Of a stretch of 64,000 bases of DNA, positions 1,126 through 44,220 are shown piece by piece. Position numbers and translations under genes: made by a program. Every line of letters begins with the position of its first letter. The first letter of the stretch is position 1. A model generated the notes under the pieces. The model was given only the letters and a program-made list of their open reading frames with translations. It did no database searches and was not told the origin of the DNA. Where the stretch lies: positions 1-64,000 of the forward strand of contig MEOK01000017.1 of the NCBI GenBank assembly GCA_001769195.1, written 5' to 3'. The DNA comes from Bacteroidetes bacterium GWF2_40_14. Its GTDB lineage: Bacteria; Bacteroidota; Bacteroidia; Bacteroidales; UBA932.

Positions 1126-1150
1126 CACCTTGCCACAGTTTTTGGCAAGT
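1126..1150 (+). repeat. REP-like repeat family A, copy 1
   Basis: A 25-bp unit with a 7-bp stem CTTGCCA/TGGCAAG around a 7-nt loop CAGTTTT, flanked by CAC and T. It is identical to the copies at 4223 and 8447 and is the exact reverse complement of those at 1251 and 8592. A partial copy (CACCTTGCCA) starts at 1097, and a small GCACC/GGTGC hairpin lies between them. With the inverted copy at 1251-1275 it forms a head-to-head pair about 150 bp long. Confidence 0.85.
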
Positions 1151-1250: not shown

Positions 1251-1275
1251 ACTTGCCAAAAACTGTGGCAAGGTG
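1251..1275 (-). repeat. REP-like repeat family A, copy 2 (inverted, upstream of RAYT)
   Basis: Exact reverse complement of the 25-bp family A unit. It lies 69 bp before the RAYT start codon at 1345 and faces the forward copy that follows the RAYT stop codon, so the transposase gene is bracketed by oppositely oriented repeats. Confidence 0.85.
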
Positions 1276-1344
1276 TGTTTTTTTCTTGTGTGTCTTGAGT
1301 TTTTTTTTGTAAATTGCGCCAAGAAATTTGTGGGAGGGATTGTG

Positions 1345-2271
1345 ATGAAGGATTTTTCTGCGTTAGTGAGTGCTGCCGATAAGTCTGTGTCGGCGTCTGT
1401 GTCGGCGTCTGTGTCGGCGTCGGAGCCGGTGTCGGTGTCGGTTGAGAATTTTCAAAGTTCAGCGGTTGTTGCATATGAGCCCAAGCGGGCGCAGGTTGGC
1501 TTTTTCCACGTGTGGATTAGGGGGAGTAATCGGTATAACGTTTTTTACGATACTACCGATTTTGCGGGTTTTCTTGAGCGGTGCCAAAGATCTGCCGAGA
1601 AGAATGAAACGGTTGTATCGGCTTTTGTACTGATGGACAATCATGTTCATTTACAAGTATATACACGCGCATTGAATGCATTTATGCGGTCTCTGCTGAT
1701 GAGCTTTAATCAGTGGTACAACAAGCGCAAAGGGATGAGCGGGCAACTTTTCAACAGTCCTTTCTCAAGCAAATTGATTGATAATGAGGAGTATCTTCAA
1801 TATAATTACTTATACATACTTACAAATCCGATTAGGGCGGGAATTTGCGAAAACATAACCAAATATCGGTGGAGCTCCTACCATTTTTCTAAGAAGGGTT
1901 ACTACAATTCTTTAGGTAAGTTTATTGATGTTAGTAACTTGGTGAATGATTACCTGTATAAATCTAATAACCATTTACATTTAAGCGCTTTACATCATTT
2001 AAAAGAGTTTTGGTCACTGGAGGGGACTGAGGGGGAGAATAGTGAAGTGAAAGAGCATTATAAAGAGAAGCATATAATCAGACCTACGGATCACGAAGTG
2101 TCAACATATTTGGTTTACATTCTCCAAGGAAGGAAATTGAGCGAAATTTCGCGTAAGGAGCTGATTAGAACGATGCAAATCCTCAGGGATCATGGCAACG
2201 CAACATATCGTCAAATCTCATCAGTCACCCACGAAAGCTTTTATGATGTGGTGAGGATGCTGAAGAGGTGA
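1345..2271 (+). CDS. REP-associated tyrosine transposase (RAYT, Y1_Tnp family)
   Basis: A 308-residue protein from ATG 1345; the frame opens at 1273, but that start would fall inside a repeat. It has the Y1/HUH transposase pattern: a first strand FFHVWIRGSNRYNVFYD near residues 51-70, the metal-binding MDNHVHL motif with His100 and His102, and YILTNPIRAG with the probable nucleophile Tyr157, followed by a W-SSYHF motif. RAYT proteins cleave and join single-stranded REP palindromes and are thought to spread them through the genome. Typical RAYTs are about 150-250 residues; this one has extra N-terminal Ser/Ala/Val repeats and a C-terminal helical DNA-binding-like region (about 245-308). The flanking 25-bp palindromes are the likely substrate. 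All active-site residues are present, so it may be functional. Confidence 0.9.
   Translation: MKDFSALVSAADKSVSASVSASVSASEPVSVSVENFQSSAVVAYEPKRAQVGFFHVWIRGSNRYNVFYDTTDFAGFLERCQRSAEKNETVVSAFVLMDNHVHLQVYTRALNAFMRSLLMSFNQWYNKRKGMSGQLFNSPFSSKLIDNEEYLQYNYLYILTNPIRAGICENITKYRWSSYHFSKKGYYNSLGKFIDVSNLVNDYLYKSNNHLHLSALHHLKEFWSLEGTEGENSEVKEHYKEKHIIRPTDHEVSTYLVYILQGRKLSEISRKELIRTMQILRDHGNATYRQISSVTHESFYDVVRMLKR
1384..1443 (+). repeat. 12-bp tandem repeat inside the RAYT gene
   Basis: Imperfect units of TCTGTGTCGGCG and shorter GTGTCG derivatives encode the SVSASVSASV and PVSVSV stretch at the protein N-terminus. Because units are multiples of three, copy changes would lengthen or shorten the protein without a frameshift. 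Confidence 0.7.
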
Positions 2272-2296
2272 CACCTTGCCACAGTTTTTGGCATGT
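2272..2296 (+). repeat. REP-like repeat family A, copy 3 (abuts RAYT stop)
   Basis: One mismatch from the family unit (GGCATGT in place of GGCAAGT). It begins at the first base after the RAYT TGA. It is followed by an about 60-bp spacer and hairpin B, the same order as at 4223-4371 and 8447-8553. Confidence 0.85.
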
Positions 2297-2357
2297 TGCT
2301 GTTGGTGTGGGTATTGTAGATGCCATTTTGGTATAGCAGATGCCTTTTTTTGATTTT

Positions 2358-2460
2358 AAGTTATTTCCCGCAGCCGGGTTCCGGGTTATTTCCCGCTCAT
2401 ATCGCAAGCTTTTTGTGAGCTTGCTGAGCGTGGGAATAACCCGGGCTGCGAGAATAACTT
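2358..2460. repeat. Hairpin repeat family B, longest copy
   Basis: A nearly perfect 103-bp palindrome with nested stems: AAGTTATT/AATAACTT, CGCAGCC/GGCTGCG, CGGGTTATT/AATAACCCG, CCCGCTCA/TGAGCG-GGG and CAAGC/GCTTG. Its last base is the first base of the minus-strand stop codon of the next gene. As RNA it would fold into a long stem from either strand, so it may act as a transcription end or mRNA 3' shield for both convergent genes. Confidence 0.85.
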
Positions 2461-4046
2461 CAATGAATGCATTTAACTATTCCGTCTGTTTTTGAGGCCA
2501 GATAAACATTGTCTTTTGTGTCCACAATCATTGGAATGTAGGCGCAACCCTTAACTAGCTCTTCTATGCCCTCAATTTTCTTTGCACCCTCTTTGCTGTA
2601 AACTTTTATACGGGTTGGATCTTTCTCAACAGTTACTATACCTCCGTTTGACAAGAAAGCAACGCTTACAGGATTGCAGCAGCCGTGGAATTCATCGATT
2701 CCTGCACCGCGTTGGCCAAAAGCTATTGTAGGGTTTCCTGTAAAGTCAAAACCGTTTACTCTGAATGCACCCAGATTAGCTACCAGAACCTCATTATTGT
2801 TACGTACTCCAAAATCCAGAATCCCACAACATGTGCGAAGTTTCTCAATTGAAGATTTTTTTGCTCCAGTAGCGTTGTCGTATATGTTAATGAGCCTGCC
2901 GCGTGTATCTGCAACCAGAATGTTGTTTTCTGACACTCTCACACCTGTAGCCGTAATTATTCCTTCAAGTTTAAGTTCTCTTACTTTTGCCCCCTTTGAG
3001 TTTAATATAATGCACTCTACGCCGGTAGGAGTCTCTACCTGCATAGTCCTTCCTCTGGATTCAACTGTTTTCTTTTCTATGATGGTACCAAGAACATAAA
3101 TGTTGTCTGTTTTGTCAACAGCTATTACAGAGGGTTTAGAGGTAAGATTAGATTTGAACTCTGCCACTTTTGCTCCTGTAGGACTTACCAGCAGAATTTT
3201 ACCTTCGCTTGTGATTGCACATACATTGTCATTTGACATTACTGCCAGATAGATTACATTTTTATGCCCTTTCCCTGCAAAAGTGTTATCTACCGAATAT
3301 GTAAGATTGCTGGCCTCTGTGATGAAAGATTCCATTGAAACTTCTGTCTTCTTCATCTCTTTTACTGTCTCGCGCATCTTTATAACACTTGGCAGTTGGG
3401 CAAGTTTTGGATTCAGCATATTTATGTATTCCTCTAGAACTGCTGCACTTTTACCGGAGGTGGCACGGCCAACTAAAACAACAGAATAGTTTGATTTTGG
3501 AAACTCCTTAATAAAATCTCTAGTAAGTTGTTCGTTCTCCTTGGCGTAGGTATCAAGAATTGCTTCAATCTCTTTTTTTCTCTCTTCAGTTACAGTTCCT
3601 CGAGGATCTCTGGAATACATCTCTCTTCTTAATTCTGTTACTTTAAACTTTTCGCTTAGCGCTTTAACCCTCTCGTTGTAAAGTTGTGAGTCATCCTGCA
3701 TCTTACTTCCCTTAACAACAGCCTTCATTAACGAGTCAACATGGCCCTTAATAGTTATGTTGGAGTTCTCATTATAAAAATAGAGTGTAGATGCCCTTGT
3801 GGCTTTAACCATAAGATAGTATTGAGATGGCTCTTGCACACTTCCCGTAAATGTAAAAGATCCGTTTTCCACAACAGCAGTGTCGATTATTGTTCTGTCT
3901 GTCACAGATATAAGAACAATCTTCCCATCTGTCAGGCCTTCCAGAGTTCCTGTAATTTTGAAAGTAGTGCTTGGTTTACATGATGTTACAGCCAATACTA
4001 ATATCAGCATAAACGCACCGAAGCGTGATTTTTGTTTTGTATTCAT
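2460..4046 (-). CDS. Lipoprotein with DUF4369-like and beta-propeller (NHL-like) domains
   Basis: A 528-residue protein. Residues 1-23 are a signal peptide ending in the lipobox VTSC, so it is a lipid-anchored envelope protein. Residues about 28-110 match the DUF4369 pattern (ITGTLEGLTDGKIVLISV, then VVENGSFTFTGSV). Residues about 250-528 contain repeated strands of the type VIAVDKTDNIYVLG and VSENNILVADTRG, as in 6-bladed beta-propeller/NHL proteins of Bacteroidota. A Cys-rich spot (RTCCGILDFG, FHGCCNPVSV) is unusual for a propeller. No enzyme motif is visible; binding of a surface ligand is a reasonable guess only. It is monocistronic, with a hexamer microsatellite upstream and hairpin B touching its stop codon. 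Confidence 0.75.
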   Translation of the reverse strand: MNTKQKSRFGAFMLILVLAVTSCKPSTTFKITGTLEGLTDGKIVLISVTDRTIIDTAVVENGSFTFTGSVQEPSQYYLMVKATRASTLYFYNENSNITIKGHVDSLMKAVVKGSKMQDDSQLYNERVKALSEKFKVTELRREMYSRDPRGTVTEERKKEIEAILDTYAKENEQLTRDFIKEFPKSNYSVVLVGRATSGKSAAVLEEYINMLNPKLAQLPSVIKMRETVKEMKKTEVSMESFITEASNLTYSVDNTFAGKGHKNVIYLAVMSNDNVCAITSEGKILLVSPTGAKVAEFKSNLTSKPSVIAVDKTDNIYVLGTIIEKKTVESRGRTMQVETPTGVECIILNSKGAKVRELKLEGIITATGVRVSENNILVADTRGRLINIYDNATGAKKSSIEKLRTCCGILDFGVRNNNEVLVANLGAFRVNGFDFTGNPTIAFGQRGAGIDEFHGCCNPVSVAFLSNGGIVTVEKDPTRIKVYSKEGAKKIEGIEELVKGCAYIPMIVDTKDNVYLASKTDGIVKCIH

Positions 4047-4110
4047 ATTTATTTAAGTGTTTATTTCAGAAACAGGTTAAGGATTGAGTTTATCTATCTA
4101 TGTGTATGTG

Positions 4111-4188
4111 TTTATGTTTATGTTTATGTTTATGTTTATGTTTATGTTTATGTTTATGTTTATGTTTATGTTTATGTTTATGTTTATG
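4111..4188. repeat. Hexamer microsatellite, 13 perfect TTTATG units
   Basis: Thirteen uninterrupted copies of TTTATG, preceded by degenerate GTGTATG units. The array lies 65 bp upstream of the ATG of the lipoprotein gene at 4046 (minus strand), where promoter elements would be expected. It is not coding in any credible frame. Confidence 0.9.
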
Positions 4189-4222
4189 TTTTAAAAGCAC
4201 ACATCTTACAAAAAGGGTGAAA

Positions 4223-4247
4223 CACCTTGCCACAGTTTTTGGCAAGT
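4223..4247 (+). repeat. REP-like repeat family A, copy 4
   Basis: Identical to the 25-bp unit at 1126. It is followed by a spacer (TTTGCATGGGC...GAATTTAAGTT) that is shared with the copy at 8447 and by hairpin B, showing that A, spacer and B are one compound element. No inverted A closes the element on the right. Confidence 0.85.
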
Positions 4248-4293
4248 AGCTGTTTGCATGGGCTTTGCATCTCTCATTTTTGAATTTAAGTTG

Positions 4294-4371
4294 AAGTTAT
4301 TTCCCGCTCATATCGCAAACTTTTTGTGAGCTTGCTGAGCGCGGGAATAACCCGGGCTGCGAGAATAACTT
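4294..4371. repeat. Hairpin repeat family B, shortened on the left arm
   Basis: A 78-bp version of the 2358-2460 palindrome. It lacks the left-arm segment between the two TTATTTCCCGC direct repeats, as expected from a deletion between those repeats, while the right arm is complete. Confidence 0.8.
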
Positions 4372-4400
4372 TAGAAACATCTAAACTAAGGGTAATTTTA

Positions 4401-4432
4401 CTTGCTTACTCCGGTAATTTGTTCTATTTTTG
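4401..4432 (+). promoter_or_regulatory. Candidate promoter of the Xre/RES pair
   Basis: A -7 box TATTTTTG at 4425-4432 matches TAnnTTTG exactly. CTTG at 4401-4404 (three of four bases of TTTG) precedes it by a 20-bp spacer. The start codon follows 23 bp after the -7 box. Confidence 0.5.
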
Positions 4433-4455
4433 TTGTGAGTAAAATTTTATGCATC

Positions 4456-4881
4456 ATGAGCGACTACAAGATAATGGATTTGGAAAAGAGTGTGCCGTCC
4501 CGATTGAATGAATCGGATGTGGTGTATGCGCTGCTTAACAAAACGGTGGACAGTGGGTCCCTGATGGCTTTGAAGGAGGTAACAGGAATAAGCGGTGAAG
4601 TTCTTTCCGGGTGGTTACATTTGACACCTAAGACATTAAGGAGTTATTTGAAGCGGAAGTCCGGCCTTTCCGAACCGGTTGGGGAACTGGTTTTGCTTCT
4701 TACAGATCTGTTCCGGCATGGTGCCGTTGTTTTTGGTTCGGTAAAGGACTTTGAGGTTTGGTTGGGCAGGGAAAATAGCATGCTCGACGGGTTGAAGCCT
4801 GCTGACATGCTTGGGTCAGTTTCCGGTATAAGATTGGTAGACGGTCGGTTGTATGGCATTGAATACGGCGATAATGTTTAA
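4456..4881 (+). CDS. Xre/MbcA/ParS-type antitoxin (DUF2384)
   Basis: A 141-residue protein from ATG 4456 (MSDYKIMDLEK); an upstream in-frame start at 4402 lies on the probable promoter and was not used. The middle (about 30-75) is a helix-turn-helix-like domain (LKEVTGISGEVLSGWLHLTPKTLRSYL). Residues about 75-135 fit the MbcA/ParS/Xre C-terminal toxin-binding domain (LTDLFRHGAVVFGSVKDFEVWL, then a GLKPADML segment matching the family's G..P..LL). It is followed 25 bp later by the RES toxin, the standard order for this type II system. It should neutralise the toxin and repress the operon. The gene pair is richer in G+C than the gene that follows. Confidence 0.85.
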   Translation: MSDYKIMDLEKSVPSRLNESDVVYALLNKTVDSGSLMALKEVTGISGEVLSGWLHLTPKTLRSYLKRKSGLSEPVGELVLLLTDLFRHGAVVFGSVKDFEVWLGRENSMLDGLKPADMLGSVSGIRLVDGRLYGIEYGDNV

Positions 4882-4906
4882 GCGACGCTGATAGAATGTT
4901 TGAGCT

Positions 4907-5392
4907 ATGCTGATATATCGTATTTGCCGTTCTGATTTTGCTTCGGATTTGAAAGCGTCGGGTTATGCCGGTAGGTGGAACCGGGATGGTCAATGGGTTT
5001 TGTATGCTAGTGCTACGCGTTCTTTGGCGGCTCTGGAGCAACTGGCCAACCGTAGTGGGCTGGTTCTGAGTGGTTCTTACTGTTTAATGGTAATAGAGGT
5101 TCCCAATATAGAAGCTACCGATGCAGAAGCTCCAGACGAGATGGATTCCTTGCGCACGGTCCTTCCTGAGATGTTGCCCCCAGACTGGCGGCGGTTTTCG
5201 GGCTACGGACGGTTGCAGGAATTGGGGGCAAATTGGTATCGCCGATCAAAATCACTGTTGTTGCGGGTTCCTTCTGTTCTTGTTCCTCAGGAATACAATT
5301 TCCTGATAAATACTCAACATCCGCACTTCCGCACTCAGGTTCGTCTGGTGGGAACGGAGGATTTTGATTGGGACAATCGGTTAGTTTTGTAG
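4907..5392 (+). CDS. RES-domain toxin
   Basis: A 161-residue protein with the RES-family signature: YRICRSDFAS, GRWNRDGQWVLYASATRSLAALEQL and a late SVLVPQEYNFLINTQHP block. The conserved Arg (in YRI), Glu (ALE) and Ser (SVL/VPS) that name the family are present. Family members degrade NAD+ by phosphorolysis or ADP-ribosylate a target, arresting growth. Length is typical. It is second in the Xre/RES operon. The next gene starts 33 bp downstream and may be co-transcribed. Confidence 0.88.
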   Translation: MLIYRICRSDFASDLKASGYAGRWNRDGQWVLYASATRSLAALEQLANRSGLVLSGSYCLMVIEVPNIEATDAEAPDEMDSLRTVLPEMLPPDWRRFSGYGRLQELGANWYRRSKSLLLRVPSVLVPQEYNFLINTQHPHFRTQVRLVGTEDFDWDNRLVL

Positions 5393-5424
5393 GTCGAATT
5401 CATATATGGAAAATTAAGATAACT

Positions 5425-6660
5425 ATGGACAAAAAAACAAAAACAGCGCCATTTTTTGACTATCTTATTCGTGTAGCTCAATCACAGACAATCGTAACTG
5501 ATAAAGACTGCATTGAAAAATTATTGCTTCTAATAAATGAAATAAGTGTTCTTGAAATTCAAGGTGTAGACGAACTTCGTAACATTTGGATAGAAGTGCC
5601 TAGAGGTGATATCCAGGATTATGGTTTATATGAAGAATTTCTTGAGGGAGAGGTCGTTAGTAACTACGAAGAGTTTGTTGAAATGTGGAAATATGAATAC
5701 CCCGAAATAACAAAATGGTATGAGATTTCTGTTGCAACTTATAACAAGGAGTATTATTTTTATGTTGATTCTGTTTTGACGTTTCATGTCAAATTTTTGG
5801 AAGAAAGGCCTACTCAAGCATATTATAGCGGTGAATTGATTGGTTGGTTCTTTGATGTTGTTATGGATGTGATGAGCTTTGTAAAAACCGATATTGCGAA
5901 ATATAATGAGCACATAAATAATTACTTACCTTTCGATAGAAGATTTGGGAAAATATTAAGAAAAGATTATTGGTCCATTTTTCCAGAAGAGGGTTTGACA
6001 TTCCAGAATCAACTTTCCGAGGAGGATGTTAATATTCTTGAAACTATCGTAAATCAATCGGTGGATCCCGGAATTGATCTGGTTCTTAAGAAACTTACTG
6101 CCGGTGATTTTTTTGATTATTGCAGAATAGGGTATGTTGCTAATGACTACTTTACAAACGATACGAATAATCTTACTGCATTGGAGATGTACAAACGATC
6201 GGCTGATGGAAGAGATGAGGGTTTTACTAAGCTAAATCTGGATTCTGAAGCAGATTTCCTTGATTGGTTCAGGAACAAAAATGGTGGTGGTCATCCGTGG
6301 GAAATCTGCAGGGGCGGGAATTCAACGCATATTTCACTATATGTCCAGTCTTCTGAAAATGGGTGGCTGTTAGTTTTGGATGGAAGCAGTTGCGTCCGAG
6401 TCCTTGAGACTGTTAAAATGGCCATCGCTTTGTACAAGAGTCACATTCCTTTCATTCTTAATAAATCGGCCGAAATACTTCGAATGATAACCGGAATTGA
6501 TTATATAGGAATTGTCCCTAAAACAATATTTCCCAGGTATTGTAATTCTCATTTCCCACCTGAAGACAAGATTATCGATTTTATGAATCTGGGTTTTGAT
6601 AATAAGGAGGAAATCATTCAAAAAGCAACTTGGTATCCGCTAAGGAGGATCCTGTTGTAG
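5425..6660 (+). CDS. Unrecognised 411-residue protein downstream of Xre/RES
   Basis: Started at ATG 5425 (MDKKTKTAPFFDYL); the frame extends upstream to 5368 but would overlap the RES gene. No signal peptide or membrane segment. It is rich in aromatic and acidic residues. A central KNGGGHPWEICRGGNSTHISLYV stretch (about 288-310) has a Gly-rich turn plus His and Cys that could be catalytic or binding, and YCRIGYVANDYF (about 213-224) precedes it. Base composition is visibly more A+T-rich than the toxin pair, which suggests a different origin. I do not recognise a family. Its position right behind a toxin-antitoxin pair makes it a passenger or possible defence gene candidate, nothing more. Confidence 0.6.
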   Translation: MDKKTKTAPFFDYLIRVAQSQTIVTDKDCIEKLLLLINEISVLEIQGVDELRNIWIEVPRGDIQDYGLYEEFLEGEVVSNYEEFVEMWKYEYPEITKWYEISVATYNKEYYFYVDSVLTFHVKFLEERPTQAYYSGELIGWFFDVVMDVMSFVKTDIAKYNEHINNYLPFDRRFGKILRKDYWSIFPEEGLTFQNQLSEEDVNILETIVNQSVDPGIDLVLKKLTAGDFFDYCRIGYVANDYFTNDTNNLTALEMYKRSADGRDEGFTKLNLDSEADFLDWFRNKNGGGHPWEICRGGNSTHISLYVQSSENGWLLVLDGSSCVRVLETVKMAIALYKSHIPFILNKSAEILRMITGIDYIGIVPKTIFPRYCNSHFPPEDKIIDFMNLGFDNKEEIIQKATWYPLRRILL

Positions 6661-6730
6661 TTGTTTGTCAAAATGCCAGATTTACGGTGGTACATTCCCT
6701 AAATAATCAAAAGTTTATAGTGGTATATTT

Positions 6731-8407
6731 CTAGTTATTGCCGCAACAATGCTTATATTTTTTACCGCTTCCACACGGGCAGGGGTCATTTCTTCCTGTT
6801 TTGCGAGATAGAATTGGCATTGCATATGTATTGTCAATCTGTTGTTTGGTTCTCTCTTTGTCAAAAATATTATACGAGGAGTTCCCTTTAAGTATCCATT
6901 TAGGAATGTTGTTGCTGTATTCTGTCACCAGTTTAAGAATGTTCTGGATCTCTTCAAAACTGTCGAAAATTAAATTATTCTTTAAGAATTTTATTGTTCC
7001 TGAGTGACTTACATCGTTTTGAATATTAAGCCATAACTTGTGAAGAAATGAATCAATATCTCTAACTCCGTTTTTTATCAGAAAAATTTTGATTTTATCT
7101 ATTTGAGGATTATTAAATGAGTAAAACGTTTTTGATGCATTCTCTATCTCTTTCCTGGAAAATATAAAATAATCTATTTTTTCTCTTTTTGATATCTCAT
7201 TAATAATTAAATTGGTATTAGCTATAAACATATAAAACAGATAGCGTGTGCCTGAAAGTTCATCTGTAATAATTTGCCTTTGCAGACGAGGGGAGCTGTT
7301 TAGACGTTTAATAATCTCTCCCTTTTCTATTGTCTCATCCTGATATTTATTTACAAATTCTACCATTTGGTTGAGTGATACAGCACCGTATAATGTTATT
7401 ACTCCAAGGATTATGTTCTCCAATTTATAATTTCTTTGCAGGGCTGGATCGTCTAATAAGGTGTCCAGGACCGGGATTATCGCACTTTTTATGTTTTGCG
7501 GAATTGTGACCGGGGGTTTGTCTTGAAGTGATAATGATATGTCTAATAATCCCGCAGAGAAGAGTCCGTCTAAGTCGTCATAAATGAAGCCTATATTTGA
7601 TTCTTCTTCATTCAGAAGAATTTTTAGTGCCGATAATTCGTTGTATGAGAGTACGTTTCTGAGAATTTGAGGTTGATTTATTATTGTATTTTCCACTAAT
7701 TGGGCACAGTCTGTTTTATTGTGACTGGTTTTCATTTTTATTCCATAAGAGCGGCCAAGTTCAATTATCTGTTCCTTTGTTTTGGTTGCAAATAATATAT
7801 CTGAGTATGTCATGACATAACCTTGACTTTCATCAAATTGTTTGTCTTCTTCATCTTCCTGCAAAAATGTATTTATCTCATTTCTATCAAAGTGAGAAGG
7901 ATCAAATTCACCTCCCAGCCACTCCTTATAGCTTTCATACTCTTCGTGATGGGGTTGCTTTAGTATCTCGACCATGTCTGAATATCCTCCTGCTCCACCG
8001 CAATCTTCCGGCGGGCAGTTCATCTCTCCCGCAATACATTGTGCGTATTTTACATTATCGTCTTCCGGTAGAATTTTTTCTAAAATAATTTCATGTTCCC
8101 ATGAATCGCCAAAGTCATATTCATATATTATTTTTTCCTTTTCTCTCTTCAATAAATCTGATACTCGCATGCATGAATAATCTACGTTGTTCATCTCTTC
8201 CCATAAGTCGTCGTCCTGCATCCTAACCGTATAAAATGTTTTGTTTTTTATAAACTGATGCAAATGCGAGTCTGACCAACCCATTGTTGTTTGGATTATT
8301 TGATGAAAATCTGACAATAATAAATCAGATGGTAAAAGAAGGCGTCTCCATATTTTTGGTTTGATCCCTTTTAAGGCAATTTGAATTTGGTAGATTTGAT
8401 TTGCCAT
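6731..8407 (-). CDS. pRiA4b ORF-3-like protein with C-terminal SEC-C zinc motif
   Basis: A 558-residue protein. Residues 1-185 match the plasmid pRiA4b ORF-3 family (PF07929): [22 protein letters not shown], the WSDSHLHQF motif, [13 protein letters not shown], and [15 protein letters not shown] with paired Cys. Residues about 200-530 are helical and unrecognised. Residues 537-556 ([19 protein letters not shown]) are a SEC-C motif that binds zinc. The family is common near mobile and accessory DNA; its molecular role is not established. The gene stands alone between two repeat islands, with its own promoter-like boxes partly inside a family A repeat. Confidence 0.85.
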
Positions 8408-8415
8408 TTTTTATT

Positions 8416-8447
8416 CAAATATAGTAAAGATGATAAACCTTGTCAAC
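8416..8447 (-). promoter_or_regulatory. Candidate promoter of the pRiA4b-like gene
   Basis: On the minus strand TATATTTG (8416-8423) matches TAnnTTTG, with GTTG (8444-8447) 20 bp upstream as a three-of-four -33 match. The -33 box overlaps the first base of a family A repeat. Confidence 0.5.
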
Positions 8448-8471
8448 ACCTTGCCACAGTTTTTGGCAAGT
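8447..8471 (+). repeat. REP-like repeat family A, copy 5
   Basis: Identical to the 25-bp unit. Together with the inverted copy at 8592-8616 it encloses a 170-bp compound element that contains the shared spacer and the shortest hairpin B. Confidence 0.85.
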
Positions 8472-8517
8472 GGGTGTTTGCGTGGGCATTGCAGATACCA
8501 TTTTCGAATTTAAGTTA

Positions 8518-8553
8518 AAGTTATTTCCCACAGCCGGGCTGCGAGAATAACTT
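8518..8553. repeat. Hairpin repeat family B, minimal copy
   Basis: A 36-bp remnant keeping only the outer stems AAGTTATT/AATAACTT and CAGCC/GGCTG. The entire inner hairpin seen at 2358-2460 is absent. Confidence 0.75.
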
Positions 8554-8591
8554 TAAAACAAATGGTAAGCAATAATGTTTGATAATGAATC

Positions 8592-8616
8592 ACTTGCCAA
8601 AAACTGTGGCAAGGTG
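8592..8616 (-). repeat. REP-like repeat family A, copy 6 (inverted, abuts a stop codon)
   Basis: Exact reverse complement of the 25-bp unit. Its last base at 8616 touches the stop codon (8617-8619) of the minus-strand lipoprotein gene. Confidence 0.85.
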
Positions 8617-9675
8617 TTATCTCCTGTAAACAGATCCTGACTCTTTCTTCTCTTTGTTTTTCTCTTCGCTCTTTTTTGTCTCTGTTTTTTTAGTCTCTGC
8701 TTTTTGTTTTTGCTCAGAGTTTCTTTTTACTTCCGCATTTCTTTTTTGATCGGCGTTCTTTTTTGCATCTGCCTTTTGCTGTTGCTCACGGTTTTGCATC
8801 TCTTTCCTCACTTTCACTGAGTTACCGATCGGTTTACCATAGTAGTTGGTCTTCTCGTTCCTGTCACCTTGCTGAGTTGTGACCGGTGGGCGATTGTTTT
8901 CTGTATTTTGGCGTTTGACATCTTGATTCTGTCGGTTGTACTCCTGGTTGCGTCTGTTTACATCCTGGTTTTGTTGGTTGACATTTTGGTTCTGCCTGTT
9001 GACATCTTGATTTTGTCGGTTGATATCCTGGATCTGTCTGTTGGCATCTTGGTTCTGCCTGTTGAACTCCTGATTTTCTCTGCGTACTCCTTGATTCTGA
9101 TTGTTCCAGTTTTGTTGTTGCTGGCGGTCCTCTTTAGAGTAATTGAAGTTGCGGTTTTTTCTCACATTTTCATCATCCCACTTGCGTGCCCTGTGCCTGT
9201 CGTTTTCTCCCCAGTAAATTGCACTCCTTCTGTTTTCATTGAATCCGCGTACATATGGGAAGTTGCTATGGTCGTAGTAGTCGCGATAATAATACCTCGG
9301 ATAATGGGAAACATAATACTGGTGATGCATCCATGGTTGATATACGTTGATATCGAGAACTATGGCAAAACTGTTATACAAATCGAAGCTTGAGTACATC
9401 GACGGCATGTTCTGCGTATAGAACCATCTGCCATCGTTCAGATAAATAAAATTACGATTCGAAAGATCGTAGTAGCATTCGATGTCCGGCAAATAATAGT
9501 AACGTGCCCCGCTGTAATATGGAGGGGCCCATTGTGGATTTTCATCGCCATAACCGTAACCGGGTTGTCCTGTTGATATTCCTAAGCCTATCACACCACA
9601 TGCGGTAAACATGGTGGTTGAGAGTAAAATGACAGCTATTACTGCTAACTCTCTTAATCTTTTGATTCTCTTCAT
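8617..9675 (-). CDS. Lipoprotein with Asn/Gln-rich heptad repeats and a Lys/Glu-rich tail
   Basis: A 352-residue protein with a signal peptide and lipobox FTAC (Cys near residue 26). Residues about 40-150 are rich in Tyr, Trp and Asn (WAPPYYSGARYYYLPDIE), a pattern seen in uncharacterised Bacteroidota envelope proteins. Residues about 200-265 consist of about nine heptads of the form NRQNQDV. Residues 290-352 are charged and probably coiled (KKNADQKRNAEVKRNSEQK). No enzymatic motif is visible. It is probably anchored in the outer membrane with an extended low-complexity arm. It is monocistronic, with its stop codon joined to a family A repeat. Function unknown. Confidence 0.7.
   Translation of the reverse strand: MKRIKRLRELAVIAVILLSTTMFTACGVIGLGISTGQPGYGYGDENPQWAPPYYSGARYYYLPDIECYYDLSNRNFIYLNDGRWFYTQNMPSMYSSFDLYNSFAIVLDINVYQPWMHHQYYVSHYPRYYYRDYYDHSNFPYVRGFNENRRSAIYWGENDRHRARKWDDENVRKNRNFNYSKEDRQQQQNWNNQNQGVRRENQEFNRQNQDANRQIQDINRQNQDVNRQNQNVNQQNQDVNRRNQEYNRQNQDVKRQNTENNRPPVTTQQGDRNEKTNYYGKPIGNSVKVRKEMQNREQQQKADAKKNADQKRNAEVKRNSEQKQKAETKKTETKKSEEKNKEKKESGSVYRR
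8911..9085. repeat. 21-bp tandem repeat inside the lipoprotein gene
   Basis: About eight or nine degenerate 21-bp units encode the NRQNQDV heptads. Units are in frame, so copy-number change would alter only the length of the arm. Confidence 0.7.
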
Positions 9676-9767: not shown

Positions 9768-9875
9768 CAGCCCTATGCTTTCATGGCCAAACATTGATAA
9801 TGAGGCCATTACGTCAAATAAATAATTTCGATAACTATCTGAATATGAGGACTTGGCCATGAAAGCATAGGGCTG
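9768..9875. repeat. MITE-like element family D, copy 1 (108 bp)
   Basis: Perfect 23-bp terminal inverted repeats (CAGCCCTATGCTTTCATGG at the left end; reverse complement at 9853-9875) enclose about 62 bp of unrelated sequence. The same termini occur at 44102-44208. No coding capacity. It lies between the divergent lipoprotein and mscS genes, 44 bp before the mscS start. Confidence 0.85.
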
Positions 9876-9918
9876 AGTATTTTTTTGTATCTTTACCACA
9901 ACTGATATCGGCATAATT

Positions 9919-12048: not shown

Positions 12049-12627
12049 TTATTTATGGTTTGTATTATAATAAACCTGATACAATTCCCGTAACCTTTTC
12101 TTGGCCCTGGTAAGATATACTCTTGATGTACTCATGCTCATGTTCAGTTGTCCGGCTATCTCTTCGTGGCAGTATCCTTCAATTTCATAGAGGCAAAATA
12201 CCGTTTTCTGTACTTCAGGGAGTTCATTCAGCATTTCAATTATCTCTTGTGCAGTAAGCCGGCTGATTATTTCCGGTTGTTCTATATTGGCTCCGTGGCT
12301 CTCATGGATGTCGGGAAGCGCCTCTCTCTCAATGAGAGGCATCTCCCTTGTCTTCTTTCTGAATTTGTCTATTGAGGTGTTGATTACTATTTTGCGTAAC
12401 CAACCTTTAAAAGATTGTTTTGTGTCTAACCTCTCAATCTCAGAAAACACCTTCAGAAAACTATCATCCACTGTTTCAATGGCATCGTTTCGCTGGCTGT
12501 TATATAACATTGCGATACTCAAAGCGTAGCCGAAATATTTTTTATATAACAGCTCCTGATGCTTTATACTCTTTCGAATGCATCCCTGAATTATTACTTC
12601 TATATCGTCAAAGTCTGTATTTGCCAC
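12049..12627 (-). CDS. ECF-type RNA polymerase sigma factor
   Basis: A 192-residue protein starting at GTG 12627 (the frame is closed by TAG 16 bp further upstream). Region 2 is at about 22-90 (LLYKKYFGYALSIAMLYNSQRNDAIETVDDSFLKVF, then FKGWLRKIVINTSIDKFRK) and region 4 at about 125-185 (LNELPEVQKTVFCLYEIEGYCHEEIAGQLNMSMSTSRVYLTRAKKRLR). It should direct transcription of its own operon and of a regulon controlled by the downstream anti-sigma protein. A heptamer tandem array begins two bases before the start codon. Confidence 0.92.
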   Translation of the reverse strand: MANTDFDDIEVIIQGCIRKSIKHQELLYKKYFGYALSIAMLYNSQRNDAIETVDDSFLKVFSEIERLDTKQSFKGWLRKIVINTSIDKFRKKTREMPLIEREALPDIHESHGANIEQPEIISRLTAQEIIEMLNELPEVQKTVFCLYEIEGYCHEEIAGQLNMSMSTSRVYLTRAKKRLRELYQVYYNTNHK

Positions 12628-12628
12628 T

Positions 12629-12705
12629 CTATTGCCTATTGCCTATTGCCTATTGCCTATTGCCTAATGCCTATTGCCTAATGCCTATTGCCTAATGCCT
12701 AATGC
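12629..12705. repeat. Heptamer tandem array, 11 units, upstream of the ECF sigma gene
   Basis: Eleven contiguous 7-bp units, CTATTGC (seven) or CTAATGC (four), on the plus strand. They fill the leader of the sigma gene up to two bases from its GTG. The seven-base unit would shift any reading frame, and TAG stops arise in every frame, so the array is not translated. Copy changes would alter leader length or promoter spacing. Confidence 0.9.
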
Positions 12706-12737
12706 CCTGCAACAAAAACTATGCAAGACTATCTATC

Positions 12738-28644: not shown

Positions 28645-28752
28645 CATAATATAGACATATAAATTACTCTAATCGTGGAGACCAGTAACCACATTAAAAA
28701 ACGGGGCGATCCCGAAAAGCCACAAGAGTAGGGAAATTAATAAATGATAATC

Positions 28753-44091: not shown

Positions 44092-44101
44092 TTTGACACA
44101 T

Positions 44102-44208
44102 CAGCCCTATGCTTTCATGGCCAAACGCTCATTATCAATATATTAGTAAAACTATAAAAATTTATAATTGCTTAATAATCAATACTTGGCCATGAAAGCA
44201 TAGGGCTG
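44102..44208. repeat. MITE-like element family D, copy 2 (107 bp)
   Basis: The same perfect 23-bp inverted termini as 9768-9875 (left arm 44102-44124, right arm 44186-44208) around a different, A+T-rich centre. It lies ten bases from element E. Confidence 0.85.
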
Positions 44209-44220
44209 AAATTGGTATGT

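Follow-up and report, generated by a model that had tools for sequence, protein, structure and literature searches.

Two separate hairpin repeat families, joined locally beside a RAYT-like gene in a Bacteroidales genome

At three places near the start of a Bacteroidales contig, a short repeat (A) is followed by a spacer and then by a palindrome (B), and B has a different length each time: 103, 78 or 36 bp. Does such a series represent a single mobile unit, or has it been put together from more than one kind of repeat? The stretch that we analysed, hereafter the window, comprises 64,000 nucleotides, namely bases 1–64000 of contig C17 (MEOK01000017.1) from the 3.36 Mb draft genome of Bacteroidetes bacterium GWF2_40_14. 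Labels of the genomes compared begin with G (the host genome is G000), those of host contigs with C, and those of individual loci or stretches with L. A first-pass annotation had taken the series to be one mobile unit decaying by slippage or palindrome deletion, or else a set of REPIN-like forms (inverted pairs of repetitive extragenic palindromic, REP, sequences) mobilised by a REP-associated tyrosine transposase (RAYT) encoded alongside. We find that A and B are two separate hairpin repeat families, and that the A–spacer–B compound is a local joining of the two rather than a general single unit.

Two repeat families joined at three loci

The order A, spacer, B is found at 2272–2460, 4223–4371 and 8447–8616; the coordinates, the order and the three B lengths in the first-pass annotation were all correct. 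At the first locus, A (2272–2296) begins immediately after the stop codon of a RAYT-like gene (1345–2268, or to 2271 with its stop codon, plus strand), and is followed by a spacer (2297–2357) and by B1 (2358–2460), the full 103-bp nested hairpin, whose final base overlaps the stop codon of a convergent DUF4369 gene (2460–4046, minus strand). The second locus consists of A (4223–4247), a spacer (4248–4293) and B2 (4294–4371), a 78-bp form with a 25-bp deletion between GTTATTTCCCGC repeats. At the third, A (8447–8471), a spacer (8472–8517) and B3 (8518–8553), a 36-bp form with a 67-bp deletion between CCGGG repeats, are followed by an inverted copy of the repeat, A' (8592–8616, minus strand), which ends immediately before the stop codon of a minus-strand gene at 8617–9675. 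B3 therefore sits within an A...A' pair. Apart from A', all these repeats and spacers lie on the plus strand, and homology among the three copies runs the full length of the A–spacer–B compound.

The spacers are related to one another, as had been claimed, rather than unrelated, which was the outcome that the annotation had named as counting against its proposal. Among 1000 shuffled sequences, none gave as good a similarity for the spacers at 4223 and 8447 or at 2272 and 8447, and 28 did so for those at 2272 and 4223. Together with A, the compound spacers also resemble the left arm of an inverted A pair upstream of the RAYT-like gene (A at 1126–1150, plus strand; A' at 1251–1276, minus strand), with 75–77% identity over 57 nt, and because of this likeness we read the spacer as an arm of A.

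The RAYT-like gene has NHVH and YILTNP motifs, its profile scores lie below the cut-offs (53.2 bits for NF047646, with a cut-off of 80, and 22.1 bits for Pfam Y1_Tnp, with a cut-off of 23), and it is flanked by A at 1126, 1251 and 2272. Genome-wide, 18 sites match A (CACCTTGCCACAGTTTTTGGCAAGTG) with three or fewer mismatches, against none for the reversed control pattern. Six inverted pairs are formed (1126/1276 and 8447/8616 in the window, one on C13, one on C41 and two on C4), with starts 59–143 bp apart, and the other sites are single. A has the attributes of a REPIN, in that inverted repeats pair to form a hairpin and a RAYT gene adjoins them. A canonical REP, as defined in PMC6006769, carries GTAG or GTGG 0–2 nt 5' of its hairpin; this foot was present at 1 of the 10 A sites with an exact core (18 A sites overall), which places A outside the canonical definition. 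We conclude that A is the REP-like repeat belonging to the adjacent RAYT gene, and that it often takes the form of REPIN-like inverted pairs.

The association between A and B was scored as the presence of an A-like core in the 120 nt 5' of B. Such a core precedes all three B copies of the host genome and 15 of the 16 examined (of 17) in G009, where 10.5% of 120-nt windows contain one as background, so that in these genomes the association is not a chance one. The corresponding counts were 0 of 13 examined (of 17) in G018, 0 of 3 in G013, 2 of 7 in G011 and 1 of 2 in G024. The core lies solely on the 3' side in two of the three copies in G016, and both B copies of G007 are followed on that side by a diverged A which the core pattern does not detect. 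At 22 B loci outside the genus there was no A-like core near B; one of these, L153, was assigned to that group from the name of its record, although the B locus in it is similar to one in G013. Five of the six inverted A pairs of the host genome are without B, and an A pair common to G011 and G024 (98–99% alike around the pair) is adjoined by a 568-bp B block in G011 only. The compound is thus real at three loci here, but the single mobile unit that had been proposed is not supported as a general rule.

Structure and decay of B

B is a nested hairpin of ∼100 nt with ends of the form GTTATT...AATAAC. An outer box (GTTATTTCCCG / CGAGAATAAC) encloses a middle stem that covaries and is bulged on its 5' side. 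Further in come an inner box nearly identical to the outer one, a YCAT bulge, which is conserved, and an apical hairpin, which varies; the two boxes are in direct order. An alignment of 37 copies contains 42 invariant columns, chiefly in the boxes, an invariance that is partly a selection effect because most of the aligned copies were chosen by a two-box pattern; diverged boxes were found in G018, G016 and G175. RNAalifold gave 24 base pairs, six of them with double-sided changes, from an alignment whose middle and apical parts are imperfect. Each half of the middle stem pairs better with its own partner (−3.74 kcal/mol) than with permuted partners (−2.25 kcal/mol, standard deviation 0.21), and none of 5000 permutations did as well; the test used 38 distinct pairs from the 55 of 63 sequences that could be parsed (eight could not), and related sequences among them are not independent. 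In G018, copies L270–L278 have diverged boxes (AGGTTATTTGCCGG), and many of them lie amid ATCCCTCGGATAAATT repeats.

Both shorter forms can be derived in silico from B1. Removing the 25 bp between its two GTTATTTCCCGC repeats yields B2 with 2 mismatches in 78, and removing the 67 bp between two CCGGG repeats yields B3 with 1 mismatch in 36, so that each deletion junction is exactly reproduced. The predicted RNA fold of B1 has an energy of −59.3 kcal/mol and a z score of −9.5, with none of 200 shuffles as good; for B2 and B3 the z scores are −3.8 and −3.0, with one of 200 shuffles as good in each case. Full-length B is common elsewhere, including among copies recovered by blastn with no two-box requirement, and as it is widespread in other genomes we read the short forms as losses. 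The 78-bp form is also present in G011 and G024, with similar flanks. The series is thus supported as palindrome decay through deletion between short direct repeats, and on this point the first-pass annotation anticipated our result.

Rfam scans at the gathering threshold gave no match to B in the window, L129, L137, L116 or L132, and in a permissive scan of 2200–4500 the best match at B was MIR4239, with 17.8 bits against a gathering threshold of 100; on these scans we ruled out B as a known RNA family. No description of B was met in the literature searched, where the titles listed for sequence strings and for REP with Bacteroidales were unrelated. Judged by these searches, B appears to be an undescribed family of REP-like hairpin.

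Distribution and orientation of B

In the host genome B was found at only these three places; other blastn rows have E values of 0.36 or worse, and the covariance model lists three at E 0.01. This model was run on 25 genomes of the host genus and on 393 genomes across the order. Since many of its rows merely repeat a palindrome already listed on the other strand, distinct places were counted, and two genomes were judged to be duplicates from their identical contig coordinates (G060 of G009, G435 of G017). B is present in 14 of the 25 genus genomes, at 17 places each in G009 and G018 (two of the latter weak), seven in G011 and one to five in the others. Across the order the model detected it in 6 genomes of 393, including two from the host genus, a count that is a lower bound because the filters were strict and 10 candidates were scored per genome. 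A search of genome contigs with the two-box left arm returned 50 stretches, and 32 were judged to be B by sequence and fold, all in records named Bacteroidota; the remaining 18 were rejected as tandem repeats, coding or chance matches by appearance. Viral contigs gave three two-box stretches, of which one (L164) was accepted as B, and a second pattern returned the same one. No blastn match to B was obtained in plasmid records (with L129 as query) or in phage records (with a query from the window).

Outside the genus, B often follows a MobB relaxase gene or an extra last gene, or, in another setting, lies past an integrase operon or its follower (L143, G175, G412). NCBIfam assigned genes of the MobB elements to BfmA and, with a score under the cut-off, to MobB, and Pfam assigned them to DUF5712; the only end repeats that we saw on the mobilizable elements were weak AT-rich 9–10-mers. 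In the Bacteroidales integrative mobilizable elements with BfmA and MobB that were read, B stands after mobB or the last gene, near the right end, but it is optional: among 10 MobB relatives in 9 of the 393 genomes, two have a full B, one has a B truncated past the first box, and seven have none in the DNA read. At L323, the B copy 3' of mobB is truncated just past its first box (AAGTTATTTCC). Three relatives without B (L320, L321 and L325) have a different hairpin-like sequence, recognised by eye, in about the same slot after mobB or the last gene. In G011, copies L094–L097 are followed on the 3' side by another palindrome (CCGAGGGGTCACCCCTCGG-like) and by further repeats. A RES toxin-like label for a gene preceding a B copy in the same genome was discarded, as the gene had no Pfam match at 0.001.

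Neighbouring B copies up to 20 kb apart are co-oriented in all 17 pairs, which come from six genomes, as against one of five pairs lying further apart; the pairs are not independent, and one rests on a partial match and one on a weak one. In G009 the copies form arrays of the type B–gene(s)–B, with genes of the AAA_15, HTH_3 plus IrrE-like peptidase, AAA_14, peroxidase, CGGC and OsmC families. An all-against-all blastn comparison of 27 loci revealed genes near B that are common to G011, G009 and G007, and no homology that stopped exactly at B. The co-oriented arrays suggest either array growth on one strand or a common orientation of transcription or replication, and co-orientation of neighbouring copies is the least explained of our results.

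How B may spread

We favour, tentatively and as something a little short of probable, a reading in which two hairpin families overlap in this region, their joined unit was copied here, B then decayed, and B spreads as DNA. The left arm of A and B would have been joined in the host genome, and the joined unit copied to three places within 6.3 kb, after which two of the B copies would have lost parts by direct-repeat deletion, as palindromes do in replication. B itself would probably spread as DNA, in the simplest case as a folded single strand on which a Y1 (RAYT-type) transposase acts in trans within the genus, and outside the genus it would be carried as a passenger on integrative mobilizable elements. 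What the data show directly is the anatomy of the repeats, the separateness of the two families, their distribution in the genomes searched, the deletion junctions and the pairing of the middle stem; copying of the joined unit, movement of B as single-stranded DNA and the part played by the RAYT are inferred. RAYT matches at E 1e-10 are found in 22 of the 25 genus genomes, and B lies less than 2 kb from a RAYT gene in 4 of the 14 B-positive ones (G000, at ∼90 bp, G011, G007 and G018). Of the mobilisation by RAYT put forward in the first-pass annotation, the part that concerns the genus is therefore plausible; as a general explanation it does not suffice, since 21 of 23 B-positive genomes gave no match to the window RAYT at E 1e-4. 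The two with matches are genus members; four of the 21 belong to the same order and the rest were placed by record names, and a distant Y1 enzyme could be missed by such a search. The persistence of B would, from this count, be independent of this particular RAYT, and amplification in a genus where RAYTs are common, with passenger status elsewhere, is the simplest joint reading that we can infer.

Besides this count, a number of observations weigh against the proposed spread. In the other 10 of the 14 B-positive genus genomes, every B is more than 2 kb from any listed RAYT (the distance is ∼12 kb in G013 and ∼42 kb in G010), and G002 and G005, drafts that are 87% and 80% complete, have a B match and no RAYT match. 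The numbers of RAYT matches and B copies do not track each other, G021 having five RAYT matches and no B and G009 one RAYT match and the most B; within the genus, B is present in 6 of the 7 genomes whose RAYT match reaches about E 1e-73 or better and in 8 of the 18 others (Fisher p 0.09). Neither an excision product nor a target-site signature was seen for B, the GTAG/GTGG foot is present at 0 of 40 copies, and B folds as one nested hairpin, not as the inverted dimer typical of canonical REPs, in which each half forms a separate hairpin. The co-orientation of all 17 near pairs is not what free transposition would predict. Finally, the difference between G011 and G024 could be a deletion: insertion and deletion are indistinguishable there because G024 has 10 bp of other sequence, and the G024 contig starts just ahead of the A pair.

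Comparison with known repeats gives likenesses as well as differences. As described in PMC3116915 and PMC6006769, REPs and REPINs with their RAYT (TnpAREP) genes share with the present repeats a small, intergenic, palindromic form, a multicopy presence in the genus and, for some copies, proximity to a RAYT gene, and A resembles REPINs in forming inverted pairs with a spacer. B differs in being ∼100 nt long and nested, in having two direct boxes and in being kept in genomes with no RAYT match; A mostly and B wholly depart from the foot described there, and the numbers are low, with at most 17 matches per genome for B in addition to the 18 sites of A here. PMC6006769 also describes TnpAREP genes of Bacteroidetes subclass 2.6 that are flanked by ‘atypical secondary structures’ with copies elsewhere in the genome. 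The window is alike in phylum, in having atypical hairpins near a transposase gene and in that copies of these occur elsewhere in the genome, but its RAYT has NHVH and YILTNP rather than the YIH[QN]NP given for the subclass. B is small, conserved and covarying in structure, and it passes between genera of Bacteroidales on mobilizable elements. It offers a concrete means of asking which enzyme mobilises REP-like hairpins where a RAYT is absent, and its three deletion states illustrate how such palindromes decay.

B might instead be a 3'-end RNA structure (a terminator, an mRNA stabiliser or a protein-binding 3' untranslated region), retained because of what it does to the transcript upstream and spreading with that transcript; we consider this unlikely, while granting it some weight. 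In the nine MobB-type loci with a listed last gene, the distance from the stop codon to B is ∼17 nt in six, 30 nt in one and ∼148 nt in two, and the other hairpin-like sequence near the B slot of L320, L321 and L325 can be read in the same way. The gene settings are divided. B1 lies between convergent genes, and in G175 and G412 B has a forward integrase operon on one side and a convergent helix-turn-helix-like gene on the other, whereas B2 has divergent neighbours and B3 is flanked by two reverse genes. Similarly, the upstream gene is on the B strand for 9 of 15 copies in G009 (three opposite, three unknown), but over 55 copies (54 from the genus and one from G032) simple open reading frame calling gave a mixture of 27 on the same strand, 22 on the opposite strand and 6 unknown. 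B as an intrinsic terminator was rejected, since it is not among the seven terminator-like sites flagged (6.7 expected) by a scan whose short loop limits may miss nested hairpins, and the lack of an Rfam match also speaks against an RNA role.

That A–spacer–B is a single compound transposon, with A as its left end and B as its right end, as in the unit first annotated, seems to us improbable. The homology from A to B in all three window copies and the A core ahead of 15 of 16 G009 copies are what such an element would show, and in G017 and G008 the 5' flank of the related DUF4369 genes is conserved as far as the start of A (4221–4223) and differs thereafter, as judged by eye. The arrangement is not constant, however: the copy at 8447 has A' on its right, some G011 copies run A–A'–B, and in G007 B comes first and a diverged A second. 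Each partner also occurs alone, B being multicopy in G018 with no A-like cores and G024 having an A pair with no B.

The co-oriented arrays keep alive, at a low probability, the idea that B is a folded recombination site, with cargo and one B inserted head to tail by a tyrosine recombinase as in integron-like cassettes. The attC sites of integrons have R and L boxes in inverted order and a GTTRRRY core. B recalls them in its folded single strand, two boxes, strand-specific bulges of extrahelical bases and variable terminal hairpin, and the B–gene(s)–B arrays of G009 recall co-oriented cassettes with their cargo; but its boxes are direct, it has neither the R-box core nor GTTRRRY/RYYYAAC ends, and reading of the stretches around the arrays, for which no profile search was made, brought up no adjacent integron-type integrase. 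Window genes between B copies lie on both strands, among the 27 loci no stretch of homology was seen to break off exactly at B in two contexts, and the 17 co-oriented pairs, coming from six genomes, do not count as independent. The arrays make a cassette-type mechanism testable. The most specific version, in which B would be the single-stranded, strand-asymmetric folded site of an undescribed integron-like Bacteroidales cassette system, with two tandem recombinase boxes, that collects toxin–antitoxin-like, ATPase and stress genes head to tail and also rides mobilizable elements, is more improbable again.

Elsewhere in the window, a second REPIN-like inverted-pair family (CAGCCCTATGCTTTCATGGCC...), at 9768–9876 and 44101–44209, is unrelated to A and B. 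Directly to the right of B2 lies a pair of Xre antitoxin-like and RES toxin-like genes (4456–5392), and short tandem repeats occur at 4095–4196 (TTTATG units) and 12615–12706 (CTATTGC units). The lone Rfam match at the gathering threshold, unrelated to B, is the cis-regulatory DUF805 RNA (RF03081) at 28670–28739 on the plus strand, with 76.8 bits against a gathering threshold of 51.1.

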